Source: Arcobacter nitrofigilis
Lineage (GTDB): Bacteria > Campylobacterota > Campylobacteria > Campylobacterales > Arcobacteraceae
NCBI GenBank assembly: GCA_020723015.1
Contig: DYJR01000007.1
Coordinates: forward strand, 1-32,708
Length of the DNA: 32,708 nt
Direction: 5' to 3'
Part shown: piece after piece, positions 6,305 to 13,587 of the stretch
Layout of the letters: every line of letters starts with the position of its first letter
Numbering within the stretch: the first letter of the stretch is position 1
Made by a program: the position numbers and the translations under genes
Notes under the pieces: generated by a model
The model's database searches: none
The model's input: the letters and a program-made list of their open reading frames with translations, nothing else
Told to the model about the DNA's origin: nothing

Positions 6305-7196
6305 TATCTTTTAAAAATACTCTTAGATTTTTGTATTCATCTTTTTTTAGGTATCTTGTTTTTCCAGTCGGAAGATTATTCAAAGATATACCGCCGAACT
6401 CTACCCTTTTTAGATCTACCACGTCAGCATTAAAAGCTCCGAAAAATCTTCTAAGCTCCCTATTCTTACCTTCACTTATAACAACTTTGAGTTTTGAGAA
6501 GCTTTTATCGTTTTTTTGTATTTGATAAGCATTAAAGGGGGGGAAAGTCATAGATGTAATCTCACTGTTTTTGTGAGCGCCTTTTGTTGCATCATCTATC
6601 GTAGTACCCTCTTCCATTGCTTTTATCATTGAAGGGGTCACATACCCTTTTATTTTAAGTTTATATACCCTCTCTAAGTTTGAGTGCATCAAAGCATTTA
6701 CTACATCAACACTGTCACTCAGAAGCAAAACTCCCTCACTGGCAAAGTCTAGCCTTCCGATAGGCAAGAAATGCTTAAATTTAACCCCTAGCGAGTCATA
6801 TATTGTTTTTCTACCTTGTGGGTCGCTTTTTGTTACAAGCTCACCCTTTGGCTTATTATACACTATTACGGTATACATCTTATTTTCTTCAAACTTCACA
6901 AGCTTACCGTTTACTTCAACCCTATCTTCAGTAGTCACTTTTTGACTTAAGTCAGTCACAATAGTACCGTTGATAGATACTTTACCCTCAGCTATAAGAG
7001 TATCTGCTTCACGTCTTGAGTATTTTGAGTTGTGTGAGATGAATTTATTTAGTCTTATCTCTTCAGAATCTACCTTTTTTGTCTCTTCAAATCTTTTTTT
7101 CTGAGGAGCTTTTTTAACAGGCTTTTTTTTCTCGACTTTTGTTTGTTTTTGCAGATTTTTTTCAAACTCTGCTTTTCTTTCTTTATAATTTTTCAC
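6270..7196 (-). CDS. rluB: Pseudouridine synthase (RluB/RsuA family)
   Basis: S4 domain (IRLNKFISHNSKYSRREADTLIAEGKVSING) and catalytic GRLDFASEGVLLLSD; Lys-rich N-terminus. Confidence 0.9.
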   Translation of the reverse strand: MKNYKERKAEFEKNLQKQTKVEKKKPVKKAPQKKRFEETKKVDSEEIRLNKFISHNSKYSRREADTLIAEGKVSINGTIVTDLSQKVTTEDRVEVNGKLVKFEENKMYTVIVYNKPKGELVTKSDPQGRKTIYDSLGVKFKHFLPIGRLDFASEGVLLLSDSVDVVNALMHSNLERVYKLKIKGYVTPSMIKAMEEGTTIDDATKGAHKNSEITSMTFPPFNAYQIQKNDKSFSKLKVVISEGKNRELRRFFGAFNADVVDLKRVEFGGISLNNLPTGKTRYLKKDEYKNLRVFLKDNAKTSKLTEAE

Positions 7197-8154
7197 TTTG
7201 TATTCCAGCTTCTATTAAGTCGTGTATATGTAATACACCCTCTAATGTGTCATTTTCATCAACCACGAGTAACAGTTGAATCTTATGACTTTCTATGATG
7301 GCTAATGCATCACTTGCCAAGATATTCTTATCGCTTATTGTTTTTGGATTTTTTGTAGCTATTGACATTACACTATGACTCAAATTAAAGTCATCATTCA
7401 TCAAAGCACGTCTTAAATCCCCATCACTTACTACTCCGTAAACCTTACCTTCCTCGGCAATTATCACGTTTCCTATTCTTCCTTCACTGATTTTAATTAT
7501 AGCATCTTTTATAGATGTTTCACGTGAAACAATAGGTAAATTTTGTTTTCTTAGAAGGTTTTCTACCTTTACAAAAAGTTTCTTACCTAGACTCCCGCCT
7601 GGGTGAAAAGATGCAAAATCCTCTTTCCTGAAGTCTCTTTTTTTCATCAAAGCGACAGCCAAAGCATCACCTAATGCCATTGTTAAAGTTGTTGATGATG
7701 TTGGTGCAGCGTTGAGTGGACAAGCTTCCTTTTCAACCTTTACGGATAAGAAAACATCACTAAATTGCCCTAATGTAGAATTAGCATCTTTTGCCATTGC
7801 AATAAGAGGAATATCAAATCTTTTTAGGTGTGGCAATATATTGATAAGTTCTTCGCTCTCTCCGCTGTAGCTTATTGCTAGTACGGAGTCACCTTTACTT
7901 ATCATTCCTAGATCTCCGTGCATAGCCTCCGTAGGGTGTAGGAAAAAAGAACTAGTTCCGGTGCTTGCAAGAGTAGCAGCTATCTTAGCCCCAACTAAGC
8001 CGGACTTACCCACTCCGGTAACTATTAGTTTACCTTGAGTATTATAAATCAAGTCTATTGCCTTGTCAAAACTACTATCTATCACTTTTGAAGCCTCTAT
8101 CAGTTGCTGTGCTTCAATCTCAAGTACCTCTTTTGCAATATCACTATACTTCAT
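7183..8154 (-). CDS. kdsD: Arabinose-5-phosphate isomerase (KdsD/KpsF/GutQ family): SIS domain plus CBS pair
   Basis: TGVGKSGLVGAKIAATLASTGTSSFFLHPTEAMHGDLGM, ASFHPGGSLGKKL, C-terminal CBS repeats. Confidence 0.93.
   Translation of the reverse strand: MKYSDIAKEVLEIEAQQLIEASKVIDSSFDKAIDLIYNTQGKLIVTGVGKSGLVGAKIAATLASTGTSSFFLHPTEAMHGDLGMISKGDSVLAISYSGESEELINILPHLKRFDIPLIAMAKDANSTLGQFSDVFLSVKVEKEACPLNAAPTSSTTLTMALGDALAVALMKKRDFRKEDFASFHPGGSLGKKLFVKVENLLRKQNLPIVSRETSIKDAIIKISEGRIGNVIIAEEGKVYGVVSDGDLRRALMNDDFNLSHSVMSIATKNPKTISDKNILASDALAIIESHKIQLLLVVDENDTLEGVLHIHDLIEAGIQSEKL
7516..7531. promoter_or_regulatory. parS: parS-like ParB (Spo0J) binding site, perfect 16-bp palindrome, inside kdsD
   Basis: TGTTTCACGTGAAACA, identical to the widely conserved bacterial parS consensus TGTTNCACGTGAAACA; encodes V-S-R-E-T of KdsD. 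Confidence 0.85.
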
Positions 8155-11846: not shown

Positions 11847-12392
11847 ATGATAATAAGTGCAGGTCGTCAAGAAACTTTTCCTTTTGCTACCCCGGTAGGT
11901 GTAGGTCTTATTGAAAGTGCTATAAACGTAACAAGAGTCGCTCTTTTTGACAAACCTGATTTTCTGGTTTTTATAGGGAGTGCAGGAAGCTACGGAAACT
12001 ATAAAATATTTGATGTGGTTGAGTCTGTAACGGCATCCAATATAGAACTTAGCCTTTGGAGAAACGACTCATATACCCCCATAGATAACGTACTAAAAAT
12101 AGACAATATAAAGGTTGAATCAAGTGTTATAGTTAACTCGTCAAACTATATATCTACAAATCAAGAACTTTGTTCAAACTTTATCAAGAATGGTATAGAC
12201 ATCGAGAATATGGAGTTTTACTCTGTATTACAAGTTGCTAAAGAATTTAATATACCTTGTATGGGAATATTTGTAGTTACAAACTATTGCAATCAGTTTG
12301 CACATAAAGACTTTATAGCAAACCATCGTGAAGCAATGGATAAATTGATGCAATATTTAATAGACAAAAAACTATTACTTGAGAAGCCCTAA
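11847..12392 (+). CDS. Nucleoside phosphorylase/MTAN superfamily protein, short, non-canonical active site
   Basis: FPFATPVGVGLIESAINVTRVALFDKPDFLVFIGSAGSYG and IDIENMEFYSVLQVAKEFNIPCMGIFVVTNYCN match the PNP_UDP_1 fold; start codon directly follows the hisF stop. Confidence 0.75.
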   Translation: MIISAGRQETFPFATPVGVGLIESAINVTRVALFDKPDFLVFIGSAGSYGNYKIFDVVESVTASNIELSLWRNDSYTPIDNVLKIDNIKVESSVIVNSSNYISTNQELCSNFIKNGIDIENMEFYSVLQVAKEFNIPCMGIFVVTNYCNQFAHKDFIANHREAMDKLMQYLIDKKLLLEKP

Positions 12393-12466: not shown

Positions 12467-12482
12467 TGTTTCACGTGAAACA
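12467..12482. promoter_or_regulatory. parS: parS-like ParB (Spo0J) binding site, perfect 16-bp palindrome, intergenic
   Basis: TGTTTCACGTGAAACA, identical to the site at 7516-7531. Confidence 0.88.
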
Positions 12483-12513: not shown

Positions 12514-13587
12514 ATGCAAGAAAGTTTAAAAACTTTATATGATTACACTCTTGATGAACTAAAGCAAATCATATCGCCCTCTTTTAGAGCAAAACAAATA
12601 TATAACTGGATATACAAAAAATATATTCAAGATTTTGAACAAATGTCAAATCTACCGAAAGATATGATTAAATCTCTAAAAGAAAACTATACTTTGGATT
12701 TGGCAAATATCAAAGCTTCTGAAACAAGTATAGACGGAAGTATAAAGTACCTTTTTGAATTTGCAGACGGTCATAGCGTAGAGTCCGTATTTCTTTTGAT
12801 GAAAGACAAACAGTATGATGATGAAGGCAATATCATAAAAAGTGAGAAATATACTTTTTGTATCTCCACACAAGTGGGATGTAAAGTTGGATGTAGTTTT
12901 TGCCTAACTGCCAAAGGTGGGTTTGTAAGAAACCTAAGTGCAGCAGAAATAGTATATCAAGTCTTGATGCTCAAAAAACTAAACAATATAGAAGAAAACA
13001 AGGCGGCAAATATAGTCTATATGGGTATGGGTGAACCTTTAGATAACTTTGACAACCTTATAAAAGCTATCAAGATAATATCAGAGCTTGACGGTCTAGC
13101 AATAAGTACAAAAAGACAAACCATATCCACAAGCGGTATAAGCTCCAAAATAGAAAAACTAGGCAAAGAAGATTTGGGAGTACAACTTGCTATTTCACTA
13201 CATGCCGTTGATGATGACCTTAGAACTGAACTAATCCCTATGAATAAAGCATACAATATAGAGTCTATTATCAATGCAGTCAGAGGATTTCCGGTCGATA
13301 CAAGAAAAAGGGTAATGTTTGAATACCTTGTAATAAAAAACAAAAACGATGATTTGACAAGTGCAAAAAAACTAGTCAAACTGCTAAATGGAATAAAAGC
13401 CAAAGTAAACCTTATATACTTCAATCCTTATCCTAATTCTCCCTATGAAAGACCTTCTAAGGAAAATATGGTAAAATTCCAAGATTATTTGATTTCTAAA
13501 GGGCTTTTATGCACTATTAGAGAATCCAAAGGGTTTGATATAAGTGCCGCATGTGGACAACTTAAAGAAAAAGATAAAGGTAAATAA
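12514..13587 (+). CDS. rlmN: Dual-specificity 23S rRNA/tRNA adenine-C2 methyltransferase RlmN
   Basis: Radical SAM motif [45 protein letters not shown]-terminal [15 protein letters not shown]. Confidence 0.96.

Follow-up and report, generated by a model that had tools for sequence, protein, structure and literature searches.

A predicted origin-proximal parS centromere in Arcobacteraceae with one site embedded in the coding sequence of kdsD

Two identical palindromes lying about 5 kb apart among housekeeping genes are predicted, with high confidence, to be the chromosomal parS sites of a bacterium of the family Arcobacteraceae (order Campylobacterales), and would constitute an origin-proximal ParABS centromere made up of one coding and one intergenic site. 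The window, that is, the whole stretch of 32,708 nucleotides that was analysed, is a series of housekeeping genes in which a pattern search located TGTTTCACGTGAAACA, a perfect 16-bp palindrome, at positions 7516-7531 and 12467-12482, with a start-to-start spacing of 4,951 bp. Both copies match the consensus TGTTNCACGTGAAACA exactly. A previous sequence-only reading of this DNA had described the first site as a full 16-bp palindrome of the parS consensus, had pointed to a second identical copy 4,951 bp away and had considered such a 16-mer very unlikely by chance in 33 kb, and all three statements held: from base composition, the window is expected to hold approximately 1e-5 exact copies and the whole genome 3e-4 to 6e-4. 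The first predicted site, to which no strand is assigned, as is also the case for the second, lies inside kdsD (7183-8154, minus strand). The second is located in the intergenic gap between an mtnN-like nucleosidase gene (11847-12392, plus strand), which itself bears a parS in Sulfurospirillum and other families, and rlmN (12514-13587, plus strand), encoding a dual-specificity RNA methyltransferase, 31 bp before the start codon of the latter.

At the genome level, the source of the window is a draft assembly (G000) of 1,502,422 bp in 103 contigs that is about 87% complete. Among named genomes, those nearest to it belong to Arcobacteraceae or to relatives without classification. When up to two mismatches were allowed, no TGTTTCACGTGAAACA-type site was found in it beyond these two, and a reversed-pattern control gave 0 matches. 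At three mismatches the forward pattern produced 6 matches against 12 for the control, which indicates that the weaker sites are noise. The copies are therefore not scattered but restricted, at up to two mismatches, to a single pair 5 kb apart. The fragmentation of the draft could invite the suspicion that the pair is the product of chance or of an assembly artefact, a proposal to which we give next to no credence because only about 5e-4 copies are expected per genome by chance and the arrangement recurs across the genera of the family, single-contig genomes included. It is also very improbable that a transcription factor recognizing a CACGTG-type palindrome uses the sites as operators to regulate rlmN together with genes near kdsD. 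The position of the second site just upstream of rlmN would suit such a role, but the first lies more than 600 nt into kdsD, the genome contains only this pair, and other copies in relatives are found in the mtnN-like gene, in intergenic gaps, in mgsA and in other places. Furthermore, the sites reproduce the parS consensus exactly and the genome encodes a ParB, which favors the assignment of the pair as parS.

The gene hosting the first site encodes an arabinose-5-phosphate isomerase of the KpsF/GutQ family (above the NCBIfam cut-off) with one SIS and two CBS domains. In the kdsD frame, on the minus strand, the site is read as ATT GTT TCA CGT GAA ACA, the palindrome starting at the last base of the first of these codons, which corresponds to I-V-S-R-E-T at residues 208-213. 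This agrees with the in-frame Val-Ser-Arg-Glu-Thr reported earlier for this gene. The segment had been placed in the linker preceding the CBS domains. With a Pfam CBS match that already begins at residue 204, however, VSRET (residues 209-213) falls in the initial part of the first CBS domain. The conservation of the site was analysed in 57 distinct Arcobacteraceae kdsD orthologues picked by taxonomy and not by motif presence. GTTYCAYRTGRAAC is found at identical codons in 56 of them, the sole non-carrier (L200) having lost the motif and reading GTA GCT TCT GGT ACA. In this family sample the third positions are frozen: their entropy over codons 209-212 is 0.38, the minimum among four-codon windows of kdsD, for which the median is 4.65, and the 14-nt core ranks first of 950 windows in nucleotide conservation. 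The five residues of the VSRET segment, in turn, rank only 129 of 317 for amino-acid conservation. Within the segment, no variation was seen at Val209 or Thr213 across the family sample. Carriers have Ser or Pro at residue 210 (YCA), Glu or Gly at residue 212 (GRA), and Arg, Cys, His or Tyr at residue 211; this last set comprises exactly the amino acids of the four YRT codons, a restriction showing that the DNA motif outranks the protein. Arginine at the site is encoded by CGT, and elsewhere in kdsD the arginine codons are 444 AGA versus 21 CGT, as counted in sequences selected by motif presence, a set that serves for codon counts only. Strict compensation between the two halves of the kdsD palindrome is seen only in part, with many mixes of T and G half-sites, and it is consequently left out of the evidence.

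In most other families kdsD lacks the motif and the segment is unconstrained, reading for example KND, DEE, SED or TED. Taking together the frozen third positions, the restriction of residue 211 to the YRT set and the freedom of the segment in most other families, the sequence comparison indicates that the protein segment follows the DNA motif and not the reverse. The opposite explanation, in which the enzyme needs V-S-R-E-T and the likeness to parS is a side effect, can draw on the in-frame position of the motif and on the invariance of Val209 and Thr213. It is nevertheless scarcely credible given that third positions are frozen, that residue 211 varies between Arg, Cys, His and Tyr, that orthologues of other families have KND, DEE, SED, TED and more at this place, and that the identical second copy is intergenic. 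The previous proposal that kdsD is constrained for both protein and centromere function thus stands in one half: the site is kept beyond amino-acid need, but VSRET carries no independent protein constraint, since the peptide tracks the DNA motif and varies freely where a family lacks the site.

Among the sampled genomes, the kdsD-embedded copy is confined to Arcobacteraceae and two further lineages. In members of Campylobacterales such as Sulfurospirillum and Nitratiruptor, kdsD is free of the motif, but its neighbourhood has a parS inside the mtnN-like gene at a near-fixed position, where it encodes V-[S/P]-[R/H]-[E/G]-T (loci L162-L216), and another one lies beyond rlmN. A further site is present in mgsA of three genomes of genus g14 (L051, L067, L076). 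All the coding copies seen share one reading phase, V-[SP]-[RHC]-[EG]-T, a coincidence that is suggestive only because one of the two other phases contains a stop (TGA). In a KdsD tree built without the site codons, the site label needs at least four changes, at least two of them forced by strongly supported branches. The likely history, we infer, is that of an ancient centromere neighbourhood where sites have come and gone, and in which the kdsD site became fixed at the base of Arcobacteraceae and in one or two further lineages. A broader scenario, whose chances we put at about even, extends this to the whole order: in Campylobacterales a small group of housekeeping genes around rlmN would have been the place where the centromere settled, with parS being gained and lost in kdsD, the mtnN-like gene and mgsA, always in the same phase, and each event rewriting the local peptide to V-[S/P]-[R/C/H/Y]-[E/G]-T. 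Drift in ParB tolerance (from CACGTG to CATATG) would thereby have been written into metabolic enzymes, and segregation would proceed without SMC-ScpAB.

The location of the sites relative to the replication origin was examined in ten near-complete Arcobacteraceae genomes, assembled in one or two contigs. The clustered sites lie approximately 38-145 kb from dnaA, equivalent to 1.5-4.6% of the chromosome. In the complete genome of a member of the same genus (G002), the only one in which GC skew was followed, the skew changes sign at dnaA and the two sites are 38 and 43 kb away from it, near the skew switch. G020 has an extra one-mismatch site at 1.51 Mb, far from dnaA, which may be due to chance. 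As dnaA was not found in the source draft, about 87% complete, the distance of its own sites to the origin is inferred from these relatives. The parAB genes of the ten genomes are far from the parS cluster, at 21-29% of the chromosome from dnaA. The source genome carries its parA-parB operon on another contig (G000:C22), with parB directly downstream of parA and in the company of birA-like, fmt-like and ATP-synthase genes (neighbour names read from translations). Its one ParB scores above the TIGR00180 cut-off, and its nearest solved structure is the Spo0J of Helicobacter pylori (4umk, E 3e-69). The two clustered copies, the parAB operon, the conservation beyond protein need and the origin proximity in relatives together uphold, as a prediction, the earlier suggestion that this housekeeping region is a chromosome segregation (centromere) locus.

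ParB loading at parS, its spreading and movement by ParA are established for ParABS systems in general. In the genome studied here, each 16-bp site would be a loading point for ParB as a CTP-dependent clamp, from which the protein would spread across the kdsD-rnj-ksgA-hisF-rlmN neighbourhood, and ParA would then move apart this ParB-covered region close to the origin. The kdsD codons would be fixed by selection for recognition by ParB, making the peptide V-[S/P]-[R/C/H/Y]-[E/G]-T a by-product of GTTYCAYRTGRAAC. SMC-ScpAB is the usual second client of ParB-parS, and its loading occurs in many, not all, bacteria and is not a defining property. In 60 of 60 Campylobacterales relatives no ScpA was found, and in none of the 60 did full-length SMC give a match above the family cut-off, the positive controls having worked in both searches. 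Part of the textbook mechanism may consequently be missing, and SMC loading may not apply at these sites. Chromosome segregation in Campylobacterales seems to take place without SMC-ScpAB, as far as a sample of 60 genomes and a search directed to SMC and ScpA, with MukB/MksB-type condensins outside it, can indicate.

With the chromosomal ParABS systems of B. subtilis, P. aeruginosa and V. cholerae chromosome I, the present one shares the type of 16-bp palindrome, a small origin-near cluster, parAB and the presence of sites in genes. In P. aeruginosa, 9 of 10 parS are predicted within coding sequences (PMC4368675), and the parS of V. cholerae chromosome I lie 63-69 kb from oriC (PMC5098823). 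Unlike those systems, the Arcobacteraceae relatives have parAB distant from dnaA, and ScpA and full-length SMC were not detected in the Campylobacterales sample. The Soj/Spo0J-parS system of H. pylori belongs to the same order and provides the closest solved ParB; two putative parS sites have been reported for it (PMC9178275). A similar palindrome is recognized by a paralogous protein at the Noc binding sites (NBS) of nucleoid occlusion, which deviate from the parS sequence at two positions of the half-site (PMC7383237). The discriminating residues of the protein are R173, T179, A184 and G201 in Caulobacter ParB and Q, K, K and R in Noc (PMC7383237). Aligned to Noc 6y93 (Q/K/K/R), the ParB of the source genome has R/T/T/G, of the parS type. 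An identity as NBS was rejected because positions 1 and 6 of the half-site carry parS bases and the ParB carries the parS-type residues R173, T179 and G201.

Sites of parS within genes are already known, and the kdsD case is a clean new example and not a new type of system. No report of a chromosomal parS in Arcobacter or Arcobacteraceae was found in a literature search that did not cover the parS survey of Livny et al. 2007. The analysis locates the predicted centromere region of Arcobacteraceae, and the kdsD site provides an unusually clear, measured example of a gene in which a signal at the DNA level takes precedence over the protein sequence. The sites also offer ready markers for chromosome segregation, through parS-ParB foci and synonymous knock-outs, in a group where parAB is origin-distant and SMC-ScpAB was not detected.

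Some variation in the sites was observed elsewhere in the sample. In genera g6, g7 and g11, the sites have CATGTG or CATATG centres and CC/GG half-sites, in kdsD and non-kdsD copies alike, and these variants give hints of a shifted ParB preference. No clear switch was seen among helix-turn-helix changes of ParB that would match the CATATG-type sites in these three genera. In four genomes of genera g11 and g13 (G013, G029, G031 and G062; loci L048, L064 and L066), the best kdsD match is 47-50% identical. In the first three of them this match does not contain the motif, a pattern that would fit replacement or loss of the native gene. Sites resembling parS persist elsewhere in all four genomes, on the same contig within approximately 12 kb in G013 and G029.
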